A DNA stretch of 64,000 nt from assembly GCF_023008165.1 (NCBI RefSeq), contig NZ_JAKQZA010000007.1:62001-126000 (forward strand). The letters run 5' to 3'. The position numbers were made by a program, and so were the translations under genes. Positions 1,124 through 24,356 of this stretch are shown here, piece after piece; position 1 is the first letter of the stretch; every line of letters begins with the position of its first letter. The notes beneath the pieces were generated by a model. That model saw only the letters and a list, made by a program, of their open reading frames with translations, was not told the DNA's origin and did not search any database. Origin of the DNA: Kordiimonas laminariae. GTDB taxonomy: Bacteria; Pseudomonadota; Alphaproteobacteria; Sphingomonadales; Kordiimonadaceae.

Positions 1124-1159
1124 AACGCAGCGCTACTTGTTCTACAGAAGCTAAAAAAA

Positions 1160-1183
1160 GGGCTACAGATTCGTCTGTAGCCC
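1160..1183. terminator. Bidirectional terminator, 10-bp stem with TTCG loop
   Basis: GGGCTACAGA and TCTGTAGCCC pair perfectly around a TTCG tetraloop. The hairpin is flanked by an A-run on the left and a T-rich tail on the right. It lies between the convergent autotransporter and spermidine synthase genes and can serve both. Confidence 0.9.
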
Positions 1184-1209
1184 TGCTTTATTTTATATGG
1201 CGCAAAAAT

Positions 1210-2073
1210 CTACTTACCGTTTTTGATAAGCCCATCAAGGCCTTTCACGGCAAAGCTCGGGATAGCAAATGCACCTGTATGAAGTGGGACATTATAATAA
1301 TCAAATTCAAGGCCAGAAGCTGCCACACGGCTCGCATCAAAATCTTTGATCGGATCATATTTCTTCGATGCAAACGTAAAGCTCCACATCCCGCCCGGGT
1401 ATGTGAGGTTTGAGAAGTTATAAAGCCATACATTTTCAAACACACCGTTCAGCACTTTGAGGAGTGACTGCTGCACATCAAGGGCATACCAGCTGTTTTC
1501 ACCTTGCGAAACAACGATACCATCATCAGAAAGGCAGTTCATAACATCGGTATAAAACTCAGCACCAAAAAGCGGCGCAGCTGGACCAATCGGGTCTGTT
1601 GAATCGACAAGGATCACATCAAACTTTTCTGATGCTTCCTTCACATATTTCACACCGTCCCCGATGATAAGTTCTATGCGTGGGTCATCAAGCGCAGAAG
1701 ATGTTTGCGGGATATGCTCTTTGCAGGCATTAACCACCATCGCATCAATTTCTACCATCACGCATTTTTCAACGCCTTTATGGCGGATCACTTCACGGGC
1801 AGTACCACCATCACCACCACCGATTACCAAAACCTTCTTCGGGTTTGGGTGCGTGAAAAGCGGCACGTGCGCAATCATATCATGGTAGGCGATTTCATCT
1901 TTTTCCGTCACCATAATCAGGCCGTCGTTCAAGAGCATTTTACCGTGCCCCTTGGTTTCCACCACATCCACGCTCTGGAACTCACTTTTGCCTGAGAACA
2001 GCACTTTTTCAACCTTCAGGCGCAGGCCTAGGAAGTCTTCAAATTTTTCTTCAATCCATAGATCAGAGTACAT
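1210..2073 (-). CDS. speE: Spermidine synthase (polyamine aminopropyltransferase)
   Basis: It transfers the aminopropyl group of decarboxylated AdoMet to putrescine, giving spermidine and methylthioadenosine in the cytosol. The product is about 287 residues, the usual SpeE length. It has the GGGDGG nucleotide loop near residue 86, the acidic MVEID strand end, and the VDSTDPIGPA motif carrying a catalytic Asp. The ATG at 2073 is chosen because AAGGAG lies 7 nt before it; a TTG 18 nt further upstream (2091) is less likely. The start lies inside the last codons of the upstream AdoMet decarboxylase gene (11-bp overlap), which indicates translational coupling and matched supply of the aminopropyl donor. 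Confidence 0.95.
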   Translation of the reverse strand: MYSDLWIEEKFEDFLGLRLKVEKVLFSGKSEFQSVDVVETKGHGKMLLNDGLIMVTEKDEIAYHDMIAHVPLFTHPNPKKVLVIGGGDGGTAREVIRHKGVEKCVMVEIDAMVVNACKEHIPQTSSALDDPRIELIIGDGVKYVKEASEKFDVILVDSTDPIGPAAPLFGAEFYTDVMNCLSDDGIVVSQGENSWYALDVQQSLLKVLNGVFENVWLYNFSNLTYPGGMWSFTFASKKYDPIKDFDASRVAASGLEFDYYNVPLHTGAFAIPSFAVKGLDGLIKNGK

Positions 2074-3025
2074 AATCTTCTCCTTGGGCAAAAACCTTGG
2101 TTGGTTCAGTAAATTTTGTTTGTGGGCGCAGGAAGCTTGCGAATTTCACATCATAGCCAGATGGCATTTTATAGCTCACCAGCTCCTTGCTTACATATTC
2201 TTCAGGGATCATTTCACTGATGCGGTCAGCAAAATCAAAATCATTATACGTCATCAAATCAAACGACGCCGGGCGCAGAACCTTCAGGATACGCGGCGCA
2301 TGTTCGATAAGGTCTACACTGCTTTCAAAGCTCACATAGCTGCTGTTCGCCTGCGGTGTAATATGAATGGTCAGGTAATCATCCCCTTTGATAGCATTCA
2401 GTGAGTAACCAAATGGTTCGAAGAGAAAATCATCCACCTGAAAGCCCGGGATAATCTCGTCGAGCTCAAGGAATTCAAACACATCGGCGCACGAAAGGGA
2501 TGGGTCTGTCAACTTCGTGGAAGCTTCACGGCCAATCTGGTACACGAGCAATTCGTATGTGCGGTCGCTATCCTGCGAACGGAAATCATTATCCACACTG
2601 AAAAGATACCCATGATGGCTATCAAGCTCTCCGAAACGGAAAGTTGAACCCGGCACATATTCATTAAGCAGCGCCACATCGTCAAGAACATTGCTATGCT
2701 GTTTGTGGCTAAAATATTCATTCTTGCGCTGGTAAATCACCTGCTCCACTGCATCTGTTCCAAACTTTTGCAGGAAATATTCCACAGCCTTCACAAGACG
2801 CGTTGTTCCACACGTAAGAATAAGCAGTCTGTCTGACCAAACAAACAAACTAGATTCTGATAAGAGAAACGCCTTACAGCGATCATTCGTTGTGCTGGAA
2901 AGTATCTGTGCATGGCATTTTTCCACCATATCTGCCCAGAAATCATTATAAGTATCATCAAGCAGATTGATCTTGTTACTGCTTAAGATAATTTCAGCTT
3001 TTTTTTCTGATCCTTCAAAGAACAA
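2063..3025 (-). CDS. speD: S-adenosylmethionine decarboxylase proenzyme, eukaryotic type
   Basis: It makes decarboxylated AdoMet for the SpeE encoded directly downstream. At 320 residues it is far longer than ordinary bacterial SpeD/SpeH and follows the animal enzyme. FFEGSEK at residues 2-8 matches human HFFEGTEK. LSESS at 55-59 holds the Glu57-Ser58 self-cleavage site that creates the pyruvoyl group. TCGTT contains Cys72, equivalent to human Cys82. GYS208 and TIH221ITP correspond to the processing residues Ser229 and His243, followed by SYVSFE. The start must be TTG at 3025, since an in-frame TAG lies 4 nt before it and GGAG is suitably placed. Class assignment is by motif reading; horizontal origin is inference. 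Confidence 0.93.
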   Translation of the reverse strand: MFFEGSEKKAEIILSSNKINLLDDTYNDFWADMVEKCHAQILSSTTNDRCKAFLLSESSLFVWSDRLLILTCGTTRLVKAVEYFLQKFGTDAVEQVIYQRKNEYFSHKQHSNVLDDVALLNEYVPGSTFRFGELDSHHGYLFSVDNDFRSQDSDRTYELLVYQIGREASTKLTDPSLSCADVFEFLELDEIIPGFQVDDFLFEPFGYSLNAIKGDDYLTIHITPQANSSYVSFESSVDLIEHAPRILKVLRPASFDLMTYNDFDFADRISEMIPEEYVSKELVSYKMPSGYDVKFASFLRPQTKFTEPTKVFAQGEDYVL

Positions 3026-3072
3026 TGCCTAGCTCCACAAAGAAATAGTCCTCGGTAAAATTGGGGGGATGA

Positions 3073-3096
3073 CATACCCTAACTTTTTAAGGTATG
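3073..3096. promoter_or_regulatory. Inverted repeat in the divergent polyamine promoter
   Basis: CATACC and GGTATG arms face each other across 12 nt in the 120-bp region between the divergent AdoMet decarboxylase and agmatinase genes. This could be an operator or an RNA hairpin. The regulator is unknown. Confidence 0.4.
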
Positions 3097-3110
3097 CGAG
3101 CAAGAAAATG

Positions 3111-3123
3111 ATACTGTCAGTAT
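3111..3123. promoter_or_regulatory. Perfect 13-nt inverted repeat ahead of agmatinase
   Basis: ATACTG-T-CAGTAT is a perfect inverted repeat lying 22 nt before the agmatinase ATG, where it would cover or follow the transcription start. It may be an operator for the speB-speA operon. No regulator gene is adjacent. Confidence 0.4.
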
Positions 3124-3145
3124 TCTTCTGCTGAGGAAAGTAAAA

Positions 3146-4057
3146 ATGAGCGAAAAGATTTGCGACATCACTGTCGCACTGAACACACCAGATGATCTTT
3201 ATTACTGTGCCGAAGAAGGTAGTGGCCTATACCGAAACAGCACGCACTTGATCGGCTTCGGATTTGATGGAACTGCTTGTTTTCGCAAGGGAACCCGCTT
3301 TGGCCCCGATGCTCTCAGGTACGTATCAGACGGTATTGAAAGCTTTTCACCCTACCAGAACGGCTGCACGGAAGACCGCAAGTTTTATGATCTAGGTAAT
3401 CTGAAGCTTGATGCCTCAACAGGTATTGAAGAACAGTGGAAATCAGCATCCAGTGATTTCGAAACTATCTTCAAAGATATTGATCTGGCTGGTGACAAAG
3501 TGCGAATCCTAACGATTGGCGGTGAACACAGCATTTCATACGCTCCTATCAAGCGGCATTTAGAAGCATACCCTGATATGGTACTATTGCATCTTGATGC
3601 TCATGCTGACCTACGGGATGGCTATGAAGGCTATCACTATAGCCACGCATCCATCATTCGCCGCTCGCTTGATCATTTCACAGATCAGAACGAACTTATT
3701 CAGTACGGTATCCGCTCCGGCACTCGCGAAGAATATGATTATATGCGTGAGCATAAAACCATCGCCACCAGCCGTGACGAGTTTCTCGAACGAGTGAAAG
3801 CTATTCCTGCTGAACGCCCAATTTACCTGACCCTTGATCTGGATTATTTTGATCCGGGCATTTTCCCGGGCACAGGCACGCCAGAACCGGGTGGTGAGGA
3901 TTTCCACTCGTTTATCAGTCTTATGAAAATTCTCCGCGAGAAAAACCTTGTGGGTGCAGACGTAGTTGAACTATCACCGCCCATCGACAGCACTGGCAAC
4001 AGCGAAGTATTTGCTGCAAAAGTGGTACGTGAACTTATTCTTGTTCTTGATAAGTAA
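3146..4057 (+). CDS. speB: Agmatinase (ureohydrolase family)
   Basis: It hydrolyses agmatine to putrescine and urea. The 303-residue protein carries the binuclear Mn ligands of the arginase/agmatinase fold: GGEHS (His128), DAHAD (Asp151, His153, Asp155) and DLDYFDP (Asp231, Asp233). The agmatinase-typical GTGTPEPGG follows. GAGGAAAG precedes the ATG at good spacing. The next gene, 12 bp on, is arginine decarboxylase, which makes its substrate; this supports agmatinase over arginase or guanidinobutyrase. The operon is divergent from the AdoMet decarboxylase/spermidine synthase operon, so the four genes form a complete arginine-to-spermidine route. Confidence 0.93.
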   Translation: MSEKICDITVALNTPDDLYYCAEEGSGLYRNSTHLIGFGFDGTACFRKGTRFGPDALRYVSDGIESFSPYQNGCTEDRKFYDLGNLKLDASTGIEEQWKSASSDFETIFKDIDLAGDKVRILTIGGEHSISYAPIKRHLEAYPDMVLLHLDAHADLRDGYEGYHYSHASIIRRSLDHFTDQNELIQYGIRSGTREEYDYMREHKTIATSRDEFLERVKAIPAERPIYLTLDLDYFDPGIFPGTGTPEPGGEDFHSFISLMKILREKNLVGADVVELSPPIDSTGNSEVFAAKVVRELILVLDK

Positions 4058-4069
4058 GGATTATCTGAA

Positions 4070-5983
4070 TTGGAAAACTGGACTATTGAACAATCTGAAG
4101 ACATCTACCGTGTAAGCCGGTGGGGTGGCACATTCTTTGATATTGGCGAAAACGGCAATATGCATGTTTTACCCGTTGAAACAGATCACAGCGTTCGTAT
4201 TGATATGCGTGCTGTGCTTGATGAGATTGTTCAGGAAGGTATCCAATTTCCCGTAGTACTCAGGTTCCATGATATTCTCCGCAGTCAGGTGGAACGCTTG
4301 AACCGCACCTTTGGTGAAGTAATCGCAGAAGCAGAATACGGCGCACCCTACCGCGGTGTTTACCCAATAAAAGTGAACCAAATGCGTGAAGTGGTGGATG
4401 AAATCACCCGTGCTGGTGCGCCTTTCCATTTTGGCCTGGAGGCTGGTTCAAAAGCCGAGCTTCTTTCTGTTCTAGCTTACCAAACCAGCTCTGAAGCACT
4501 TACCATTTGTAACGGCTATAAAGATGAAGAGTTCCTGCGCCTTGCCCTGCTTGGTAATAAACTTCGCCGTAACACAGTGGTGGTTATTGAGAAGTTTTCT
4601 GAAATCAAGCCGCTTCTGGATCTCGCAACTGAGATGAAAGTGAAGCCGATTATCGGCCTTCGCACTAAGATGCGCGTTACAGGCCGAGGCAAATGGGAAA
4701 GCTCTAGCGGAGAACGCGCTAAATTTGGCCTCAGTATTTCTGAAATCCTGAATGCCGTTGAGCTTATCGAAGCTGAGGGATACTTAGACAGCATTTCCCT
4801 GCTCCATTTCCATATCGGTAGCCAGCTCACTGATATTCGCTCAGTACAGGATGCTATAGACGAAGCTGCACGCATTTATGCCAAGCTCTATAAACTTGGT
4901 GTACCGCTCAAATATCTGGATGTAGGTGGCGGCCTCGGCATTGATTATGACGGCACCCGTTCAACCAGCGAAAGCTCTCGCAATTATTCCCTACAGGAAT
5001 ATGTAGAATCTGTGGTGTATGGCACCAAGCAGGTATGTGACCTTGAAGGAGCACCACACCCAACGCTGGTTAGCGAAAGCGGCCGCGCCATCACCGCACA
5101 TCATAGCTGCGTTGTAACCAAAGTGATCGGTGAGATTAAAAACGATACTGGCCTTGTGCCAACTGCAGCTGTTGAAGATGAACATATTCTTGTAACCAAC
5201 ATGCGTGATCTGGTTGAAAATCTGCATGACCTTCAAAACTATCAGGCTGCTCATAACGAAGCTCAGAAAATCAAGGAAGATGCGGAAGCTGGTTTCAAAC
5301 TGGGTGTGATCGGCCTTAAGGAACTTGGTCGCATTGAAACCATGTATTGGACTGTAATGCGCCGGGTGGAAGGTAACCTGGATACCCACGACAGTATGGC
5401 AGAAGAAAGCACCAGCCTTACTGAGCGCCTCTCTAGCCAATATCTCTGCAACTTCTCCGTCTTCCAATCTGCAGCTGATAGCTGGGCGATTGATCAGGTA
5501 CTCCCAGTTGTGCCCATCAGCCGTTTGAATGAAGAACCGACAAAAAACTGCTCGCTCGTGGACATCACCTGTGACAGCGACGGTAAAATCGCACAGTTCA
5601 TAGGCGATACTGTTACCAACAGCACCCTGCCTCTTCACGCGCTTAACGAAGAAGAACCATATTATATTGGCTTATTCCTGACTGGGGCCTATCAAGATGT
5701 GATGGGCGATATGCATAATCTCTTTGGTCGCCTGAATGAGGTACATGTTTCCTGCGATGATGATGATCCGAACGATTTTTATATCGAGGAAGTGGTAACT
5801 GGTTCCACGGCAGCTCAGGTACTGAAGATCATGCAGTATAACCCGGGTGCTATGGCTGACCGCGTGAAAGATGCCATTGATCAGGAAATCGCAGCAGGCA
5901 CAATTAAATCCAGGCAAGGCGTGAAACTCACAGACTTTTATGAGAATTGCCTTAAGGGTTATACCTACCTTAAAACGAAATAG
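4070..5983 (+). CDS. speA: Biosynthetic arginine decarboxylase
   Basis: This PLP enzyme of fold type III decarboxylates arginine to agmatine. The 637-residue protein aligns by eye with E. coli SpeA throughout. It has YPIKVNQ with the PLP lysine at about 101, the GLEAGSKAEL motif, LLHFHIGSQ, the glycine loop DVGGGLGIDYDGT, SESGRAITAHH, and the C-terminal DITCDSDGKI and GAYQDVMGDMHNLFG segments. The start is TTG at 4070: the agmatinase stop codon is in the same frame 12 nt upstream, no ATG intervenes, and TAAGGA sits 9 nt before the TTG. It is cotranscribed with agmatinase and ends at a strong terminator. Confidence 0.95.
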   Translation: MENWTIEQSEDIYRVSRWGGTFFDIGENGNMHVLPVETDHSVRIDMRAVLDEIVQEGIQFPVVLRFHDILRSQVERLNRTFGEVIAEAEYGAPYRGVYPIKVNQMREVVDEITRAGAPFHFGLEAGSKAELLSVLAYQTSSEALTICNGYKDEEFLRLALLGNKLRRNTVVVIEKFSEIKPLLDLATEMKVKPIIGLRTKMRVTGRGKWESSSGERAKFGLSISEILNAVELIEAEGYLDSISLLHFHIGSQLTDIRSVQDAIDEAARIYAKLYKLGVPLKYLDVGGGLGIDYDGTRSTSESSRNYSLQEYVESVVYGTKQVCDLEGAPHPTLVSESGRAITAHHSCVVTKVIGEIKNDTGLVPTAAVEDEHILVTNMRDLVENLHDLQNYQAAHNEAQKIKEDAEAGFKLGVIGLKELGRIETMYWTVMRRVEGNLDTHDSMAEESTSLTERLSSQYLCNFSVFQSAADSWAIDQVLPVVPISRLNEEPTKNCSLVDITCDSDGKIAQFIGDTVTNSTLPLHALNEEEPYYIGLFLTGAYQDVMGDMHNLFGRLNEVHVSCDDDDPNDFYIEEVVTGSTAAQVLKIMQYNPGAMADRVKDAIDQEIAAGTIKSRQGVKLTDFYENCLKGYTYLKTK

Positions 5984-6829: not shown

Positions 6830-7540
6830 TTAGTATTTTCCAGTTTTCCTGAAAGCAAGCGGAGAGAAACCGGTTGCTCGATAAAACTGCCGGCTAAATG
6901 CGCTCTGGTCTGCATAGCCAACATTATTCGCGATTTCCGCAATGGGAAGTTTTGTTGTAAGCAACTGTTTTCGAGCCAGGTCCAATCTCAACTTAAGTAT
7001 CCATTGCCCCGTGGAAAGACCAAAGATATCACGGATACGACGATCGAGCTGATAAGGAGAAAAACCAGCTCTTTCCGACAAACTTTTCACGTCCGGTGGT
7101 AAGTATAGATGATTTTCCGTATACTCAATAACTGATTGCAATTGGGCATAATCTGCATGATTTTCATCAGGAGCACGCAAATCCTGTGAAACCCCAGCGA
7201 GCCCTAACAGGATACCCTCATCATCATAAACTGCATACTTGTTAGTCATACACCATCCGAGAGAACGATCCGGATAAGTATGAAGTTCCAGCTGGTTTAC
7301 GATGGGTTGGCCGCTAGATAAAACCTTCAGGTCTTGCTTTTCATAATCAGCACCAAGCGAACGTCCCTGCACCTCTGACGGTTTTTTTCCTATCAGTTCG
7401 CTCTTTCTGCGGAGGCCACATCTTTTAACAAGAGTTTCATTCACCACAGCATATTGTCCAGCTGTGTTTTTGATGAAAAACACAGTATCTGGCAAACAAT
7501 CAAATAATTCCTCTGTCGGGCAATAACGCTTGTCAACCAT
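6830..7540 (-). CDS. PAS-AraC family transcriptional regulator
   Basis: The protein has about 236 residues. The N-terminal 110 or so form a PAS-like sensor (LPDTVFFIKNTAGQYAVVN, GLAGVSQDLR). The C-terminal half is an AraC DNA-binding domain with two helix-turn-helix units (SLSERAGFSPYQLDRRIRDIFG and IAEIANNVGYADQSAFSRQF). The gene is divergent from the hydroxyproline operon, with a 140-bp shared promoter region, so it is the probable activator of that operon; the inducer is unknown. The ATG at 7540 is more likely than the TTG two codons earlier, though neither has a strong ribosome binding site. Confidence 0.87.
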   Translation of the reverse strand: MVDKRYCPTEELFDCLPDTVFFIKNTAGQYAVVNETLVKRCGLRRKSELIGKKPSEVQGRSLGADYEKQDLKVLSSGQPIVNQLELHTYPDRSLGWCMTNKYAVYDDEGILLGLAGVSQDLRAPDENHADYAQLQSVIEYTENHLYLPPDVKSLSERAGFSPYQLDRRIRDIFGLSTGQWILKLRLDLARKQLLTTKLPIAEIANNVGYADQSAFSRQFYRATGFSPLAFRKTGKY

Positions 7541-7683
7541 ACACAAAACCTATTTTCTGGTGGTTTAAGAAATTCATTTTATGCAAAAAATCAAGTTTAT
7601 ATCAAGATAATTGCCAAGACGTAAAAGAACCCCGATGATATTATCAATACTGCAATAACACGGTAGTCAAGAGGACGTTTACT

Positions 7684-8628
7684 ATGACAAACAACAGTAT
7701 TTTTTCTGGCTGTATGCCGGCGTTGATGACACCCTGCGACAATAGCGGAACGCCCGATTTCGCTGCTTTGGCGCAGAAGGGTCGTGAGCAGATCGACGCT
7801 GGCATGAGTGCTGTTGTTTACTGCGGATCGATGGGGGATTGGCCGCTTCTCACTGATGAAGAGCGAATGCAAGGGGTGGAAGCCCTTTGTGAAGCAGGTG
7901 TACCGGTTATTGTAGGCACTGGCGCCCAAAACACTAAACGTGCGGCAGCCCTAGCCGCACACGGGGCTGACGTTGGCGCCGCGGGCCTAATGGTTATCCC
8001 TCGGGTTCTTTCCCGAGGGATTTCTCCCACCGCACAGTATCATCATTTCTCGGCTGTACTAAAGGCAGCACCTGAACTTCCTGCTGTTATTTATAACAGC
8101 CCTTATTATGGCTATGAAACCAAAGCGGACCTCTTCTTTAAACTAAGAGAAGAAAATTCAAACCTTGTTGGCTTCAAGGAATTTGGCGGTGCTCAATCCC
8201 TTACTTATGCAGCAGAAAACATCACTTCAGGTGATGACAATCTCATTCTCATGGTAGGTGTAGATACTCAGGCATTCCACGGGTTTGTAAACTGTGGCGC
8301 AGGTGGCGCGATTACCGGTGTTGGTAACGCTCTGCCAACGGAAGTCTTGCGTCTTGTTGAGCTTTGTCAGCGGGCAGCGAAGGGCGATGCAGAAGCGCGC
8401 CGCCTTGCCTACGAACTCGATTCTGCCTTGCAGGTATTAGCTACCTTTGATGAAGGCCCTGATCTGGTTCTCTACTACAAACATTTGATGGTGCTGGAAG
8501 GCAACCCTGAATATACGCACCAATTAAATGATTTTGACCAGCTTTCCAGTTCTCAAAAAGCTTTTATCGAACAAGCATGGCAACAGTTCAGAAACTGGTG
8601 GGATAGCTGGCCAGGCAAGGTAGGGTAA
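7684..8628 (+). CDS. DapA-family lyase, probable 1-pyrroline-4-hydroxy-2-carboxylate deaminase
   Basis: A class I aldolase-fold protein of 314 residues related to dihydrodipicolinate synthase and N-acetylneuraminate lyase. The Schiff-base lysine is in LVGFKEFGG (Lys165) and the helper tyrosine in AVIYNSPYYGY (Tyr137). In hydroxyproline operons this family member deaminates and dehydrates 1-pyrroline-4-hydroxy-2-carboxylate to 2-oxoglutarate semialdehyde. That specificity is inferred from the next three genes: hydroxyproline epimerase, D-amino acid dehydrogenase and aldehyde dehydrogenase. AGAGGA precedes the ATG by 8 nt. It is the first gene of the operon, facing the PAS-AraC regulator. Confidence 0.87.
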   Translation: MTNNSIFSGCMPALMTPCDNSGTPDFAALAQKGREQIDAGMSAVVYCGSMGDWPLLTDEERMQGVEALCEAGVPVIVGTGAQNTKRAAALAAHGADVGAAGLMVIPRVLSRGISPTAQYHHFSAVLKAAPELPAVIYNSPYYGYETKADLFFKLREENSNLVGFKEFGGAQSLTYAAENITSGDDNLILMVGVDTQAFHGFVNCGAGGAITGVGNALPTEVLRLVELCQRAAKGDAEARRLAYELDSALQVLATFDEGPDLVLYYKHLMVLEGNPEYTHQLNDFDQLSSSQKAFIEQAWQQFRNWWDSWPGKVG

Positions 8629-8636
8629 TACCTTAA

Positions 8637-9566
8637 ATGCGAGTTATAGATTCACATACCGGGGGTGAGCCCACCCGCGTTATTATTGAAGGTGGCCCAG
8701 ATTTGGGCCACAACTCTATGGCAGAACGCCGCAAATTATTCGCACGCAAATTTGATAATTTCCGTACGAAGTCCATCCGTGAACCGCGAAGTTCGGACGC
8801 GGCGGTTGGTGCCCTTTTGTGCGAACCGGTCGATCCAAAGAATACTGCAGGTGTGATTTTCTTCAATACTGCAGGGTTTCTTGGAATGTGTGGTCATGGC
8901 ACTATTGGCCTGATCAACACACTGGCATATCTGGGGAAAATTAGTGAAGGCATTCATTATATAGAGACGCCAGTTGGCGTCGTGCAAGCTGAGCTTCTCT
9001 CTGATAACAAAGTGCGCATCGAAAATGTTGCCAGCTACCGGTTCAGGAAAAATGTAACTGTCCATGTGCCTGAAATAGGTGACGTAACGGGAGATATTGC
9101 CTGGGGAGGCAACTGGTTCTTTCTGGTACAGGATAGCCCTGTAGAGCTGATCACCGATAACATCATTGATCTTACTTACAAATCGCTCTGTGTCCGCCGT
9201 GCATTAGCTGCTAATAACATTACTGGCAAAAACGGTGCGGAAATTGATCATATTGAGTTTTTTGGCCCCTCAAAACTTAACGGTGTTAACAGCAAGAACT
9301 TTGTTATGTGCCCTGGGGGCGCTTATGACAGATCTCCATGCGGCACAGGCACCAGCGCCAAGGTGGCCTGCCTTGCTGATGATGGTAAATTAAATGAAGG
9401 CGAAAGCTGGCTACAGGAAAGTATTGTAGGCAGTGTATTTGAGGCCTCATATAGAAAAAACAGTGCTGGCGAGATCATCCCTTCCATTACTGGCAGTGCC
9501 TATATCTGCGGTGAAGCAAGATTAATTTTTGATGAGAACGATCCATTCCGCTTGGGAATGCCATGA
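8637..9566 (+). CDS. 4-hydroxyproline 2-epimerase (proline racemase family)
   Basis: It converts trans-4-hydroxy-L-proline to cis-4-hydroxy-D-proline. The 309-residue protein opens with IDSHTGGEPTRV and has both catalytic cysteines: Cys85 in GMCGHGTIG and Cys235 in DRSPCGTGTSAK. Two cysteines mark an epimerase/racemase; the Cys/Thr pair of 3-hydroxyproline dehydratase is absent. DIAWGGNWFFLV and NFVMCPG match known 4-hydroxyproline epimerases closely, and the operon context agrees. The ATG lies 8 bp after the previous stop. The TGA stop overlaps the next ATG by 4 bp. Confidence 0.93.
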   Translation: MRVIDSHTGGEPTRVIIEGGPDLGHNSMAERRKLFARKFDNFRTKSIREPRSSDAAVGALLCEPVDPKNTAGVIFFNTAGFLGMCGHGTIGLINTLAYLGKISEGIHYIETPVGVVQAELLSDNKVRIENVASYRFRKNVTVHVPEIGDVTGDIAWGGNWFFLVQDSPVELITDNIIDLTYKSLCVRRALAANNITGKNGAEIDHIEFFGPSKLNGVNSKNFVMCPGGAYDRSPCGTGTSAKVACLADDGKLNEGESWLQESIVGSVFEASYRKNSAGEIIPSITGSAYICGEARLIFDENDPFRLGMP

Positions 9567-10825
9567 CACAAGAACTATCAGATAGACCTACCATCATAAT
9601 CGGGGCTGGTATCATTGGCCTCGCTTGTGCACATTATCTATCTGCCGAAGGCCATAAAGTTCTTGTGCTTGATAGCGGCACTATTGCTTCTGGTTGTTCA
9701 GCTGGCAACTGTGGCCATATTATCCCCAGCCACATCCTGCCACTTAACTCACCGGAAGCCTTAAAAACTGGCCTGCTATCACTTGTTAACAGCAAATCTC
9801 CCTTCAGGATAAAACCACAGCTAAAACCATCTTTCTTAAACTGGATGTTTCAGTTCGCCATAAACTGCAAAACTGATAAAATGCTGGATACAGCAAGCCA
9901 TTTAAAGGCTATTTTAGACGCCGCTTTTGCTGAATATGAACAACTAATCGCAGCTAAAGTTTTTGACTGCAACTGGCATAAATCCGGCTTAATGTATGCT
10001 TTTAAAAATCAAAAAGCTCTGGATGGTTTTGCCAAAACAGATGACCTTCTCAACAAGAATTTTGGGCTTAAAGCCGAAAGGTACGAGGGAAATAATTTAA
10101 AGCAATATGACCCTGCTTTAAAAGAAGACCTCGCAGGAGGCTTTTTCTATAAAGACGATGCCTTGCTGGAGCCAGAAAACCTAACATTATCCTGGGCACA
10201 ACACCTCAAAAAGCGTGGTGTTTCCTTTATTGAGAATTGCGAGGTTTTAGGGATTGAACTCAATGGCAGGGTTGCAAGCAGACTAAAAACTTCCTCGGGC
10301 GTTCTTGATGTCGGGCAACTTGTTATCGCATCAGGAGCGTTATCAAATAGTTTCGCGCGTGATCTCAAATGCTCGATCCCAGTTCTACCGGGCAAAGGGT
10401 ATTCCATAACCTTACCAAAACCTGAAGTATCCCCAAGAACATCATTGATCATACCAGAAAAGAATGTGGCTATAACGCCCTTTAAGAATGAATTACGGAT
10501 AGGTTCCATGATGGAATTTGTAGGCTTTGACCGCACCGTGCCTGCTCACAGAATAGAACAACTACGCACAAGTGTTGATGATTACCTGCTGTCAGATATT
10601 TCTAGCCTTGAAGAAAAACAATGGTACGGATGGCGTCCCATGACATGGGATAGCTTACCGATGATTGGACGATTACCGGGTTTAGAAAACACATGCATCG
10701 CAACGGGTCACGGTATGATGGGGGTAATGCTTGCCCCTGCAACAGGCCGACTAATTGCTGAAATTATGACCGAGAAAGAACGCTACATCCCAGAAGCACC
10801 TTATTGCCCTGCTCGCTTTGGATAA
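9563..10825 (+). CDS. FAD-dependent D-amino acid dehydrogenase, probable cis-4-hydroxy-D-proline oxidase
   Basis: A DadA-type flavoprotein of 420 residues. The FAD dinucleotide fold is IIIGAGIIGLACAHYLSAEGHKV near the N terminus, and the C-terminal segment WYGWRPMTWDSLPMIGRLPG with TGHGMMGVMLAPATGR is typical of the DAO/DadA family. It should oxidise cis-4-hydroxy-D-proline from the upstream epimerase to 1-pyrroline-4-hydroxy-2-carboxylate, the substrate of the DapA-family deaminase in the same operon. It overlaps the epimerase gene by 4 bp (ATGA), so it is translationally coupled. It appears to be a single-subunit enzyme; no partner ferredoxin-like subunits are present. Confidence 0.88.
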   Translation: MTQELSDRPTIIIGAGIIGLACAHYLSAEGHKVLVLDSGTIASGCSAGNCGHIIPSHILPLNSPEALKTGLLSLVNSKSPFRIKPQLKPSFLNWMFQFAINCKTDKMLDTASHLKAILDAAFAEYEQLIAAKVFDCNWHKSGLMYAFKNQKALDGFAKTDDLLNKNFGLKAERYEGNNLKQYDPALKEDLAGGFFYKDDALLEPENLTLSWAQHLKKRGVSFIENCEVLGIELNGRVASRLKTSSGVLDVGQLVIASGALSNSFARDLKCSIPVLPGKGYSITLPKPEVSPRTSLIIPEKNVAITPFKNELRIGSMMEFVGFDRTVPAHRIEQLRTSVDDYLLSDISSLEEKQWYGWRPMTWDSLPMIGRLPGLENTCIATGHGMMGVMLAPATGRLIAEIMTEKERYIPEAPYCPARFG

Positions 10826-10869
10826 GCAGCTTCTGAGTGACATCTAGATATTTGAACGGAGATAAAACC

Positions 10870-12306
10870 ATGTCGATTTTTAAAAACTATATCAACGGTG
10901 AATGGGTAGCCGCTGACAATGCTATCTCAAACATCAACCCATCAAATACAAATGACATTGTTGGTGAATATGCACGTGCTGGCCAATCGCAGACACTTGA
11001 TGCAATTGCTGCAGCAGAGGACGCCAGCAAGACATGGCGTTACAGCAATATTCAGGCACGTTTCGATGCACTTGATTTCATCGGTTCTGAAATCCTTGCC
11101 CGTAAAGCTGAACTTGGTGAACTTCTTGCTCGGGAAGAAGGCAAAACTCTTCCAGAAGCGATTGGCGAAGTAGCTCGTGCGGGGCAGATATTCAAGTTTT
11201 TCGCGGGCGAAACGCTTCGTATCCAAGGTGATATGCTGGCCTCTGTCCGCCCGGGTGTTACTGTTGATGTAACCCGCGAGGCCGTTGGTGTTGTGGGTAT
11301 TATCACTCCGTGGAACTTCCCAATTGCAATCCCAGCATGGAAAATTGCACCCGCGCTCGCATACGGCAACACAGTGGTTATCAAGCCTGCTGAGCTCGTA
11401 CCTGGCAGCACATGGGCACTTACAGAAATTATTTCTCGCGCAGGCCTGCCTAACGGTGTTTTCAACATGGTAATGGGTGCTGGTCGCGAAGTAGGCCAAA
11501 CACTTCTGGATGACCCGCGTGTAAATGCGGTTTCTTTCACTGGCTCAGTTGGTACAGGCTCTCGCGTTGCAGCTGCATGTAGCGCACGAAACGCAAAGTA
11601 TCAGCTTGAAATGGGAGGTAAAAACCCTCTTATTGTGCTGAATGACGCTGATATTGACAACGCACTTGGATGTGCACTCAACGGCGCCTTCTTCTCCACA
11701 GGTCAGCGCTGTACCGCCTCTTCACGACTGATCGTTGAAGCATCCGTTTATGATGAATTCACAGAAAAGCTTCATGCGCAAGTAGCTGGCCTTAAAGTAG
11801 GTGATGCACTGGCGGAAGGCACCCAAATTGGCCCAGTTGTTGATCAGCGTCAACTTGACCAGAACCAGAAATATGTAGATATCGGAAAACAGGAAGGCGC
11901 AAACCTTCTTTGTGGTGGTGAACTGCTTGAAAGAGAAACACCGGGCTTCTATATGGCGCCGGCTCTCTTTGCAGATACAAACAATGATATGCGGATTAAC
12001 CGCGAAGAAATCTTCGGCCCAGTCGCGACAGTACTAAAAGCAAACAATCTAGATGAAGCAATATCCCTCGCAAACGATACCGACTTCGGTCTATCTGCAG
12101 GTATTTGCACCACATCCTTAAAATCGTCGAACCATTTCAAGCAAATGAGCCGCGCCGGCATGGTGATGGTGAACCTGCCAACAGCTGGTGTTGATTACCA
12201 TGTTCCATTTGGCGGCACTAAAGGTTCAAGCTATGGTTCCAGAGAACAAGGCCGCTATGCCGCAGAGTTTTACACAACTGTAAAAACTGCTTACTCGCTT
12301 GCTTAG
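10870..12306 (+). CDS. Aldehyde dehydrogenase, probable 2-oxoglutarate semialdehyde (2,5-dioxopentanoate) dehydrogenase
   Basis: An NAD(P)-dependent aldehyde dehydrogenase of about 478 residues. It has the cofactor segment GVVGIITPWNFPIAIPAWKIAPAL in two parts, FTGSVGTG, the general-base Glu in LEMGGKNP and the catalytic Cys in STGQRCTASS. As last gene of the hydroxyproline operon it should oxidise 2-oxoglutarate semialdehyde to 2-oxoglutarate, which enters the TCA cycle. The ATG at 10870 is chosen because GGAG lies 8 nt upstream and ALDH homology begins there; a codon at 10837 has no such site. A terminator follows within 25 bp. Confidence 0.9.
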   Translation: MSIFKNYINGEWVAADNAISNINPSNTNDIVGEYARAGQSQTLDAIAAAEDASKTWRYSNIQARFDALDFIGSEILARKAELGELLAREEGKTLPEAIGEVARAGQIFKFFAGETLRIQGDMLASVRPGVTVDVTREAVGVVGIITPWNFPIAIPAWKIAPALAYGNTVVIKPAELVPGSTWALTEIISRAGLPNGVFNMVMGAGREVGQTLLDDPRVNAVSFTGSVGTGSRVAAACSARNAKYQLEMGGKNPLIVLNDADIDNALGCALNGAFFSTGQRCTASSRLIVEASVYDEFTEKLHAQVAGLKVGDALAEGTQIGPVVDQRQLDQNQKYVDIGKQEGANLLCGGELLERETPGFYMAPALFADTNNDMRINREEIFGPVATVLKANNLDEAISLANDTDFGLSAGICTTSLKSSNHFKQMSRAGMVMVNLPTAGVDYHVPFGGTKGSSYGSREQGRYAAEFYTTVKTAYSLA

Positions 12307-18316: not shown

Positions 18317-18392
18317 GCCCGTATAGCTCAGTTGGTAGAGCAGTTGATTTGTAATCATCAGGCCCGCGGTTCGAGTCCGTGTGCGGGCACCA
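18317..18392 (+). tRNA. tRNA-Thr (anticodon TGT), copy 1
   Basis: A 76-nt cloverleaf with encoded CCA: acceptor GCCCGTA/TGCGGGC, D arm GCTC-AGTTGGTA-GAGC, anticodon loop TTTGTAA with anticodon TGT, a five-base variable loop, and TTCGAGT T-loop. The anticodon stem GTTGA/TCATC carries a T-T mismatch at 28-42 that also occurs in the second copy. It decodes ACA and related threonine codons. Confidence 0.96.
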
Positions 18393-18421
18393 TCCTGAAA
18401 CAGAGATGCTTTTTCAAGCAT

Positions 18422-18497
<76 letters not shown>

Positions 18498-20649: not shown

Positions 20650-23277
20650 TTAGTAACCGAGATTAGGCCTGATCCAACGCTCAATCGTTTCAATATCACT
20701 GTCACGACGCTCCACATAATCTTCAACCTGATCTTTACCAACTTTACCTACACCAAAATAACGCACCTCTGGATGGGCAAAATAATAGCCGGATACTGAG
20801 GCTGTTGGCATCATGGCAAAGCTATCAGTAAGTTCGATACCTGTCTCTTCCTGTGCATTCAGTAGACGAAAAAGCTCAGGCTTTTCTGAATGGTCTGGGC
20901 ATGCGGGATAACCGGGAGCCGGGCGAATACCTTGATAACGTTCCTGAATAAGCTCTTTGTTTGTGAGGTTTTCATCCCGCGCATACGCCCAAAACTCTTT
21001 CCGAACGCGCTCGTGCATACGTTCAGCAAACGCTTCAGCAAGGCGATCAGCAAGTGCCTTGAGCATGATTTCATTATAATCATCATGCGCAGCTTTATAG
21101 CGCTCTACATGCTCATCAATACCGTGGCCAGCAGTTACCGCAAAACCGCCCATATAATCAGGCTTCGACCCAACTGGCGCGATGAAATCAGAGAGACAAT
21201 CATTTGTGCGCCCAGCGCGCTTTGATACCTGCTGCCTTAGGCAGTGGATAGTTGACAGTTCCTCACCTCGGTTATCACCCGTGTAGAGCTTGATATCATC
21301 GCCTTCACTGTTCGCGGGCCAGAAACCAATCACACCTTTTGCCGTAAGCCATTTTTCATCCACAATCTGCTTCAGCATCGCTTGTGCGTCTGCGTAAAGG
21401 CTTGTAGCACTTTCACCAACAACTTCATCTTCGAGGATTGCAGGGAATGAACCCGCAAGCTCCCATGTGCGGAAGAAAGGTGTCCAGTCAATACGCTCAA
21501 CTAGATCTTCAAGTGGATAATCTTCAAATACTTTTGTACCAAGGAAACTTGGCTTCACCGGTGTGAAAGCCTCAAAATCTGGCATCGCTTTATTTTCACG
21601 AGCGGCTTCTATGCTGACAAGCCTGTCTGCCTTTGGTTTCGCAAGGCGTTTTTCAAGGATATCAGCATATTCAGCTTTGGTGTTGGTCACAAAACCAGCC
21701 TTCAGGTCTTCAGATACCAGCGTACTGGCAACACCTACTGCGCGAGATGCATCAAGTACGTGGGTAATTGGCCCTGTGTAAGTCGGGGCAATCTTAACCG
21801 CCGTATGCACCTTGCTTGTCGTGGCTCCACCAATAAGAAGCGGCATATCCATGCCTTTACGCTCCATCTCGGTCGCGACAGTTACCATTTCGTCAAGAGA
21901 TGGTGTGATAAGGCCAGAAAGACCAATCATATCAGCATCATGATCATTCGCAGCCTTGAGGATATCAGCCCACGGCACCATCACGCCCATATCAATCACT
22001 TCGAAGTTGTTACATTGCAGCACAACACCAACGATGTTTTTACCGATATCATGAACATCACCTTTTACGGTTGCCATGATGATCTTGCCTTTGGCTTTGG
22101 AACCCTCTTCTTTTTCATCTTCAATGAAAGGCTGAAGATAATTTACCGCCTGTTTCATAACGCGTGCGGACTTCACCACTTGCGGCAGGAACATCTCACC
22201 GGAACCAAACAGATCACCCACCACGTTCATGCCGTCCATCAGTGGACCTTCAATTACCTGAATAGGGCGCGCAAACTGCTGACGTGCTTCCTCTGCATCT
22301 TCTTCAATGAAATCATTGATACCTTTAACGAGCGCATGTTCTATCCGCTTGGCAACAGGCTCTTCCCTCCAGGAAAGATCTTCCTTACGTTCTTTGATAA
22401 GACCACGGTATTCATCTGCCACATCAAGAAGACGCTCAGTCGCATCATCACGGCGGTTCAGGATTACATCTTCCACCCGCTCACGAAGCTCATCAGGGAT
22501 ATCTGAATAGACCGTAAGCTGGCCCGCATTCACAATCCCCATATCCATACCAGCCTTAATGGCGTGATACAGGAACACACTGTGCATTGCCTCACGCACC
22601 GGGTTATTACCACGGAAAGAGAAAGAGATATTAGATACACCGCCGGAAACTTTGGCGTATGGCAGATGGGTTTTAATCAGGCGCGTCGCTTCAATGAAAT
22701 CCACACCATAATTGTTATGCTCTTCGATACCCGTCGCCACCGCGAAGATATTTGGATCAAAGATGATATCCTCGGGCGGGAAGCCAACTTCATTCACCAG
22801 CACGTCATAAGAGCGCTTACAAATCTCAAATTTGCGCTCGATAGTATCGGCCTGCCCCTGCTCATCAAACGCCATCACAACAACAGCGGCACCATAGCGC
22901 ATAATTCGTTTCGCCTGTTCAACGAAAGGCTCCTTGCCCTCCTTCAAGCTGATAGAATTCACCACAGCTTTACCCTGAACACACTTTAAGCCTGTTTCAA
23001 TCACAGACCATTTGGAGCTATCAATCATAACCGGAACTCTGGAAATATCCGGTTCCGCAGCGATCAACTTCAAGAATCTCTCTATCGTATCCTCAGCATC
23101 AAGCATGGCGTCATCCATGTTGATATCGATAATCTGCGCGCCACCTTCTACCTGATGGCGGGCAACAGTTACTGCTTCTTCGTAATTCTCTTCAAAAATC
23201 AGTTTTTTGAACTTGGCGGAACCCGCAACGTTTGTGCGTTCACCAACATTGATAAACTGTGCAATTGGCTTGGTCAT
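20650..23277 (-). CDS. metH: Cobalamin-dependent methionine synthase, folate/B12/activation part
   Basis: It transfers methyl from 5-methyltetrahydrofolate to homocysteine through cobalamin, with the separate homocysteine-binding subunit. The 875 residues carry, in order, the pterin-binding domain ([25 protein letters not shown]), the B12 cap and the B12-binding domain with the axial-ligand motif [13 protein letters not shown]. The C-terminal AdoMet-binding reactivation domain follows ([15 protein letters not shown]). The N-terminal homocysteine domain of E. coli MetH is absent because it is encoded 5 bp upstream as its own gene, a split common in alphaproteobacteria. It is last in the metF-metH operon. 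Confidence 0.95.
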
Positions 23278-23282
23278 ATCAG

Positions 23283-24356
23283 CTACTCAACAGGTTCCAT
23301 ACAGTTAATTTTAACAGGGTCAATACCTGAAAGTTTCATAACAGGCTCAAATACCGGTACCTTGCGCGGGGCTTTACCTTCCGCCGCCTTCGCGATAGCT
23401 ACAATATGATCCGGTGTAGTGCCACAACACCCACCTGTAATATTCAGCAAGCCCTCTTCAGCCCAGCCACCAAGCAATCCACCCGTAATTTCAGGCGTTT
23501 CATCATACTCACCCATCTCGTTCGGCAGGCCCGCATTCGGATATACGCACACCAGTGTATCAGCGATATCTGAAATGGTTACCGCATGCGGTCTTAGCTG
23601 TTCTGCGCCAAAGGCACAGTTAAGACCGATAGACCAAGGTTTGGCATGGCGAACGCTGTTCCAGTAAGCCTCGATAGTTTGCCCTGAAAGATTCCGGCCA
23701 GACATATCCGTGATTGTACAGGAAAGCATCACCGGAAGACGTACACCTTTTTCTTCAAATACTTCTTCTGTCGCGAAAATTGCAGCTTTTGAATTCAAGG
23801 TATCAAACACTGTTTCAATCAGGATGATATCCACCCCGCCTTCAATTAGGCCCTCAACCTGTTCTTTATAAGCAGCAGCTACTTCATCAAATGTAACAGA
23901 ACGGTACCCCGGGTTATTCACATCTGGTGATACGGAAAGCGACTGGTTCATCGGCCCGATAGAACCTGCAACAAAACGCGGTTTTTCAGGAGTTTTCGCT
24001 GTCCATTCATCCGCTACACGGCGTGCAAGCTTCGCGCCCTCAACGTTAATTTCTTTGGCAAGAGACTGCATATCATAGTCCGCCATAGAAACGCTGGTTG
24101 CGTTAAAGGTGTCTGTCTCAATGATATCAGCACCAGCAGCAAGAAACTCGCCATGGATTTTCGCAATCACATCAGGCTTCGTGATAACGAGCAAATCGTT
24201 ATTGCCTTTGAGATCAAGATGATAATCTTTAAATCGCTCACCACGATAATCTGCTTCCTCAAGCCCTTCTTTCTGGATCATTGTGCCCATGGCACCATCC
24301 ATAATAAGGATACGTTCTTTGGCAAGTTTCGTGAGCGTTTCTGTTACTATACTCAT
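23283..24356 (-). CDS. metH: Methionine synthase, homocysteine S-methyltransferase part
   Basis: The 357-residue protein is the Hcy-binding TIM barrel corresponding to the first domain of MetH. It has [10 protein letters not shown] near residue 19 and the zinc ligands in GLNCAFG (about 250) and [10 protein letters not shown] (about 313-314). It binds and activates homocysteine and must associate with the C-part encoded next. The two genes are 5 bp apart with independent starts, so this is an authentic split, not a frameshift. It shares its first base with the metF stop and is cotranscribed with it. Confidence 0.94.

Follow-up and report, generated by a model that had tools for sequence, protein, structure and literature searches.

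A eukaryotic-type S-adenosylmethionine decarboxylase in a spermidine gene cluster of Kordiimonas laminariae, and conservation of its putative putrescine pocket alongside speE

The window, by which we mean the whole 64,000-nucleotide stretch of Kordiimonas laminariae DNA analysed here (contig NZ_JAKQZA010000007.1, positions 62,001 to 126,000), contains the four polyamine genes listed in Table 1. The genes speE and speD are read one way and speB and speA the opposite way, and this layout bears out two claims of an earlier sequence-only reading, namely that speD lies in a polyamine cluster and that it overlaps speE. The overlap amounts to 29 nt with the TTG start of speE; an alternative ATG at 2073-2071, with AAGGAG 6 nt before it, is possibly the better start and would shorten the overlap to 11 nt. 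The speD frame likewise starts with TTG, with GGAG 7 nt upstream, and its protein begins MFFEGSEKKAEI. Judged by their families, the four genes are a complete route from arginine through agmatine and putrescine to spermidine. For the carboxyspermidine route, no nspC match reached the curated cut-off (409 bits) in 31 genomes; strong matches below it came from G032 (376.5 bits) and G038 (350.7 bits), both of the same order as the window, and none of the 19 genomes of the window's genus held a strong match. The nearest solved structures to SpeE are the spermidine synthases 1inl (272 bits) and 1iy9 (263.8 bits), which we take to be bacterial, followed by 6o65 and 1xj5 (about 231 bits), taken to be from plants, and 2o05 (203 bits), taken to be human; on its sequence, the window SpeE is of the bacterial type.

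Table 1 Features of the spermidine gene cluster, in window coordinates
Feature	Position	Strand	Basis or remark
Terminator-like hairpin between speE and the convergent autotransporter gene	1159..1184		hairpin scan
speE, spermidine synthase	1210..2091	-	NF002010, 346.6 bits, over cut-off
speD, class 2 S-adenosylmethionine decarboxylase proenzyme, 320 aa	2063..3025	-	PF01536, fold match, tree
Glu234 (human Glu256), putrescine pocket	2324..2326	-	alignment
Asp154, Thr156, Glu158 (human Asp174, Thr176, Glu178), putrescine pocket	2552..2566	-	alignment
Leu70 at the human Lys80 place	2816..2818	-	alignment counts
Predicted self-cleavage site, Glu57-Ser58 codons	2852..2857	-	aligned with human E67-S68
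Glu11 (human Glu15), putrescine pocket	2993..2995	-	alignment
Lys9 at the human Leu13 place (Arg in potato)	2999..3001	-	alignment counts
Divergent intergenic region, 120 bp	3026..3145		between speD and speB
Inverted repeat CATACCCTAA-N4-TTAAGGTATG	3073-3096		speD-speB intergenic region; same in G013
speB, agmatinase, divergent to speD	3146..4057	+	TIGR01230, 196.7 bits, cut-off 174.3
speA, biosynthetic arginine decarboxylase	4070..5983	+	NF003763, 810.2 bits, and TIGR01273, 715.7 bits, both over cut-off

The inverted repeat in the divergent region is a possible operator. In the 20 gammaproteobacterial loci inspected, no CATACC/GGTATG pair lay within 400 bp upstream of speD, and an operator common to the gammaproteobacterial clusters was rejected on that ground. 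Terminator-like hairpins such as the one behind speE numbered 10 in 5 kb, against 5.2 expected from shuffled sequence. The autotransporter gene beside speE changes faster than its neighbours: it is about 88% identical between sister species (best alignment, L008 against L007), while the neighbouring genes are 97-100% identical (L008, window -3523 to 1120). Elsewhere in the window we observed two tandem tRNA-Thr(TGT) genes (18317-18497), a methionine synthase present as two adjacent reading frames (a homocysteine S-methyltransferase of 357 aa and a remainder of 875 aa; 20650-24356), and a row of genes at 6833-12306 (AraC-type regulator, DHDPS-like protein, proline racemase family protein, FAD oxidoreductase, aldehyde dehydrogenase) that presumably resembles a hydroxyproline catabolic cluster.

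Profile, residue and model comparisons confirm the speD product as a class 2 (eukaryotic-type) AdoMet decarboxylase and not a SpeD/SpeH. The protein matched PF01536 with 196 bits (cut-off 22.2; E 1.2e-57) over residues 2-298, and PF02675, the class 1 SpeD/SpeH family, gave no match at a maximum E-value of 10, a setting at which the HMMER filters remove most matches above 0.1. Its score against NCBIfam TIGR00535, 151.6 bits, falls under the curated cut-off of 233.15, which marks it as a divergent member of class 2; that cut-off was presumably set on eukaryotic members. The animal-type proenzyme motifs read from the letters (FFEGSEK, Glu57-Ser58, Cys72, Ser208 and His221) were all found in place, and the last four align with human Glu67-Ser68, Cys82, Ser229 and His243. 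Across 91 bacterial class 2 rows the Glu-Ser cleavage site is identical in all, and the equivalents of human E67, S68, C82, S229 and H243 are invariant; Ser58 is the predicted pyruvoyl precursor. An AlphaFold2 model built from an alignment of 52 sequences including the window's, all of which match PF01536, had a mean pLDDT of 92.7 and a pTM of 0.91. With this model, the best PDB matches in Foldseek were human AdoMetDC proenzyme structures (TM up to 0.82), aligned over the whole length, while Thermotoga maritima SpeD aligned over about 110-120 columns. A search of the genome for AdoMetDC genes of both classes gave this one class 2 gene and zero class 1 (PF02675) genes.

We then compared the enzyme with the putrescine site of its human counterpart. 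The five residues of the acidic pocket (E15, D174, T176, E178 and E256) are all kept in the window enzyme. We take Thr176 to be a putrescine-pocket residue of the human enzyme, and Lys80 to have a role in that putrescine-activated enzyme. D174, E178 and E256 were taken from the titles of human mutant structures, a table in PMC3686867 places Glu15 and Asp174 in the human putrescine site, and a phrase in the same paper, 'Leu in place of Thr', concerns Thr176 in the pocket. Since all five residues are present, we predict that putrescine stimulates the window enzyme, a prediction we hold with somewhat better than even confidence. Two replacements common to the bacterial clade count against it. The human Lys80 place is Leu, Ile or Val in 91 of 91 bacterial rows, and human position 13 holds 88 Lys, 2 Arg and 1 gap, a signature of the bacterial clade.

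The strongest alternative builds on these two replacements. In the potato enzyme Arg18 presumably fills the putrescine pocket, and Lys9 might do the same here, which would make the window enzyme a plant-like constitutive one on which putrescine has no effect. Position 13 is basic in 90 of the 91 bacterial rows and Lys80 is lost in all 91, which favours this, but the potato enzyme has Val for Asp174, Arg at human 111 and His at human 285, where the window has Asp154, Ile97 and Tyr260; among the plant-type marks (basic 13, 111 and 285, and loss of Asp174) only basic position 13, as Lys9, is found in the window. We regard this alternative as unlikely, although it deserves to be taken seriously, and the comparative pattern described next also bears on it. 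The potato enzyme needs no putrescine, according to passages in PMC3686867 and PMC5201418.

When departures from the pocket were viewed across the bacterial class 2 genes, we noticed that they seemed to go with the absence of speE, so that the first test of this linkage was made after the fact. A gene was counted as linked if the fetched locus held any speE match, and as unlinked if none lay in the fetched stretch, typically 6 kb per side, with a shorter flank of 1.7-3.5 kb on one side at a contig end for L044, L045, L049 and L054; the counts cover the fetched loci only, and the spermidine synthase of an orphan's genome may lie elsewhere. In this first set, the five pocket residues were intact in 54 of 54 speE-linked rows compared with 6 of 25 unlinked ones, the six being from Ferrimonas, Marinomonas and Pokkaliibacter. 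One locus, L042, has speA and speB and no speE, and its pocket reads ENTQE. Linked rows have 50 invariant columns, and the four of these most often changed in the remaining 19 orphans were pocket positions: E15 (kept in 42%), T176 (53%), D174 (63%) and E256 (68%); E178 was kept in 95% of these 19. The nine catalytic or AdoMet columns were kept in 100% and the 36 other columns in 99% on average. When five columns were picked at random 100,000 times from the 41 non-catalytic ones, only 2 picks were kept as poorly as the pocket. Of the phylogenetically independent pairs in the first set alone, five agreed with the pattern, none ran against it and one was tied (p 0.0625).

For a fresh test, the prediction was written down beforehand and 34 further loci were fetched, which with five fetched earlier made 39; the 19 of these that were less than 97% identical to rows L009-L088 formed the fresh set. 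Here the pocket was intact in 8 of 8 linked and 2 of 11 unlinked loci (Fisher p 0.0007). Seven of the 19 were not wholly fresh, being the same genes as L089, L090, L092 and L094-L097, whose residues had already been counted but whose neighbours had not been viewed. The 12 wholly unseen loci gave 6/6 linked versus 1/6 unlinked (p 0.015), and 6/6 versus 1/4 (p 0.033) once two close sisters were set aside. The unlinked exceptions of the fresh set were L156, with Val at the human Glu11 place, and L162, a Shewanella-like row. Combining both sets, all five residues are intact in 62 of 62 speE-linked and 8 of 36 unlinked bacterial class 2 genes; the catalytic residues stay in the unlinked genes, apart from a few cases (L156, L161). 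For the two sets together, a tree inferred with the pocket columns left out has nine independent pairs on supported branches, of which on average 7.6 favour the pattern, 0 oppose it and 1.4 are without a difference (sign test: median p 0.0078, range 0.0078-0.031).

The pocket is thus kept alongside speE and often lost elsewhere, for which the simplest reason would be that putrescine binds there and matters for the operon enzymes. Whether putrescine stimulates the enzyme as in animals was a question raised by the sequence-only reading, and it gains comparative support from this pattern. The pattern also tells against the plant-like alternative: the pocket is intact in 62 of 62 speE-linked rows although Lys9 is kept in 95% of orphans, and a pocket already filled by Lys9 would not be expected to follow linkage. 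A wider proposal is that bacterial class 2 enzymes are putrescine-gated through a rewired pocket, with Lys13 for Lys80, and that the gate is selected in spermidine operons and shed by many catalytic orphans; we put the chances of this at about even. If it is true, the gate-less orphans would be decarboxylases outside putrescine control, perhaps reflecting another use of decarboxylated AdoMet. The linkage pattern was not found in the open-licence PMC papers searched, and we regard it as new, in contrast to the eukaryotic descent of bacterial class 2, which a passage of PMC10407285 already has in print.

The orphan class 2 genes, those without speE in the locus, are mostly from Colwelliaceae. 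A lost pocket together with kept catalytic residues was observed in L015, L024, L032, L040, L044-L046, L049, L051, L055 and others, and in at least two assemblies an orphan occurs beside a linked copy (Litorilituus lipolyticus, L055 with L034; a Colwellia MAG, L045 with L027). Two divergent class 2 proteins, L120 and L161 (269 and 279 aa as extracted frames), have largely lost the pocket, and L161 carries Asp at the human Glu8 place. No common biosynthetic theme emerged near the orphans among ten proteins from seven loci. Nine Colwellia-type loci have three neighbouring families in common, represented in L015 by a beta-lactamase-family protein, a Cons_hypoth95 methyltransferase-like protein and a DUF416 protein.

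Class 2 genes proved rare in bacteria, as had been supposed. They occurred in 11 of 397 genomes sampled across the phylum, of which two belong to the window's genus, and in 1 of 387 genomes (264 genera) drawn from the window's class, the sole positive being the window's own genome, with G013 outside that draw. Among 98 relatives, class 2 was present in two, the window genome and G013, whose copies are 98% identical and lie in the same gene order, and class 1 in ten. By comparison, 32 of 118 genomes in the family of G700 carry class 2, the G700 protein being identical to that of Thalassotalea sp. G2M2-11. G700 is of the window's phylum but of another class, which places the window genome in Pseudomonadota outside Gammaproteobacteria, with Alphaproteobacteria the probable class by elimination; a search for a 16S gene gave none, and the best plasmid matches to MetH were mostly alphaproteobacterial, with Klebsiella and Aeromonas records scoring almost as high. 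In the class of G731, whose class 2 protein most resembles that of Shewanella, an evenly spread draw of 370 genomes contained 1 with class 2. When genomes of 84,980 species were scanned with a pattern, 309 class 2 coding stretches came up; the best 80 of these belong by record title to Gammaproteobacteria, Bdellovibrionota and one Deltaproteobacteria MAG, and are 41-58% identical to the window speD (tblastn). The nearest bacterial relative outside the genus has 59% identity. Carriage by a mobile element or virus was considered and dropped, since the phage, plasmid and viral collections held no relative at the sensitivity used.

In a careful tree of 86 rows, the window and G013 fell inside a 45-row bacterial class 2 clade (support 100/99), apart from human and potato; the corresponding 47-row clade of a quick tree (support 99) comprises Colwelliaceae, Kangiella, Psychrosphaera, Algicola and other Gammaproteobacteria. 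Constraining the window and G013 to group with the human and potato rows cost 25.5 log units (p-AU 0.0067); the tree is unrooted, contains these two eukaryotic rows, and has long branches leading to human, potato, L096 and L097. The branch of the window and G013 is itself long (0.44), which suggests that a transfer event was not recent, or that the donor is unsampled. For speE, speB and speA too, bacterial relatives come from these loci. Among the best 80 of the 309 loci, 22 have all four genes arranged divergently as in the window (Thalassotalea, Colwellia, Kangiella, Psychrosphaera and kin), and a further 4 have speB, speD and speE so arranged, with no speA match in the locus. The L009 cluster is identical to the window's at 58% for speD, 79% for speE, 63% for speB and 61% for speA. 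In trees limited to rows selected by way of speD and a small number of class 1 neighbours, SpeE groups with the clade bacteria in 28 rows (86), or in 29 when one Bacteriovoracaceae row is included (96). The sister group of the window SpeA consists of 23 of these bacteria (98), and SpeB lies, less sharply, in a 30-row group (100) without resolution against a Halobacteriovorax row. SpeE of the window type is confined to the same 2 of 98 relatives that have class 2, other matches being at most 40% identical, so speD and speE probably came together.

These comparisons suggest another bacterium as the probable source of speD and its cluster, the donor being most simply a gammaproteobacterium of the Colwellia/Kangiella clade or an unsampled relative thereof. 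The GC content of the cluster, 46.3% against 46.7% for the window, carries no foreign mark. No empty site was seen around the pirin homologues of six other species of the genus, because these homologues (52-61% identical) are flanked by genes unmatched in the window's neighbourhood.

Other histories fare worse. Class 2 might be bacterial in origin and have passed to eukaryotes, or both might have inherited an older fusion, as the diversity of the bacterial clade (Gammaproteobacteria, Bdellovibrionota and the MAG titled Deltaproteobacteria) and its separation from the two eukaryotic rows would allow; we consider this improbable against the reverse direction stated in a passage of PMC10407285, where class 2 is called a eukaryotic invention, encoded by some bacteria, with a phylogeny pointing to an original eukaryotic source. 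Vertical inheritance in the window's class, with loss nearly everywhere else, would accommodate the 98% identical speD genes of G000 and G013 in the same surroundings, but is very improbable with class 2 in 1 of 387 genomes of the class and 2 of 98 relatives and with the nearest sequences outside the genus being gammaproteobacterial. Transfer from or to eukaryotes, which the sequence-only reading had raised, finds no support for the window gene. Direct acquisition from a eukaryote would explain why the gene is of the eukaryotic form, and the source stated in PMC10407285 lends it some colour; the nesting in the bacterial clade, the AU rejection and the arrival of the gene with bacterial-type speE, speB and speA make it scarcely credible, and we rejected it on the class 2 tree and AU test with two eukaryotic rows. 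A bacterial class 2 profile scored human alpha chains highest among solved structures (up to 140.8 bits; T. brucei 127.0, potato 93.3), but this ranking and the N-terminal traits are likenesses, not evidence of transfer from animals. Finally, a switch of substrate to arginine or ornithine, of the kind some class 1b SpeD homologues have made and which a passage of PMC10407285 calls widespread among SpeD homologues, is hardly to be believed with full speA and speB next door, speE overlapping, and Phe3, Glu4, Glu7, Leu55 and Phe202 kept at human AdoMet or active-site places. The place of human Glu247, which PMC3686867 lists among the AdoMet contacts, holds Gln225 in the window enzyme and Gln in 86 of the 91 bacterial rows.

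We therefore return to the reading of a spermidine-serving enzyme. As families and residues suggest, SpeA would convert arginine to agmatine and SpeB agmatine to putrescine, the SpeD proenzyme would cleave itself at Glu57-Ser58, form its pyruvoyl cofactor and yield decarboxylated AdoMet, and SpeE would combine this with putrescine into spermidine. Putrescine would bind the acidic pocket, which is conserved and lies between the two beta sheets, and would stimulate processing and/or activity; stimulated in this way, SpeD would sense the product of speA and speB before AdoMet is spent. Taken as a whole, a spermidine-serving class 2 enzyme that is stimulated by putrescine, in a cluster from a gammaproteobacterium or an unsampled relative, is the account we consider likely.

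The evolution of AdoMetDC controls is called an open question in a passage of PMC5201418. Putrescine control is established in human and reported absent in plants, and trypanosomes largely use a partner protein instead. A pocket that is kept in operons and repeatedly lost in orphans amounts to a natural experiment with many replicates, and the bacterial enzymes are testable in E. coli. The result also corrects, for the window gene, a tempting story of direct eukaryote-to-bacterium transfer.

Among known systems, the closest are the bacterial class 2 enzymes of Thalassotalea, Colwellia and Kangiella, and then of Bacteriovorax, Shewanella and Ferrimonas. The window enzyme shares with them the processing site, the catalytic residues, Lys at human 13 and a hydrophobic residue at human 80, and differs in belonging to another class of Pseudomonadota, in its long branch and in its own possible operator. 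Human AMD1 (1msv, 1jl0, 1i7b) has the same fold, the Glu-Ser site and the five pocket residues, but at 31% identity Lys80 and Leu13 are replaced and Glu247 is Gln. Potato AdoMetDC (1mhm) agrees in fold, cleavage site and a basic residue at human 13; it is 30% identical and, unlike the window enzyme, has lost Asp174 and carries Arg at human 111 and His at human 285. The class 1b SpeD of T. maritima (1vr7, 1tlu) matches half of the window fold (TM 0.61-0.64 depending on the target), whereas the window protein gave no PF02675 match. Fungal and protist class 2 enzymes are described in a passage of PMC5201418 as having a proline (T. brucei P31) and a long N-terminus; at the P31 place, located through the match of T. 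brucei E36 to human E15 given in that paper, the window has Ser6, and its protein begins MFFEG. In this short N-terminus without a proline at the P31 place, the window enzyme is like human AMD1.
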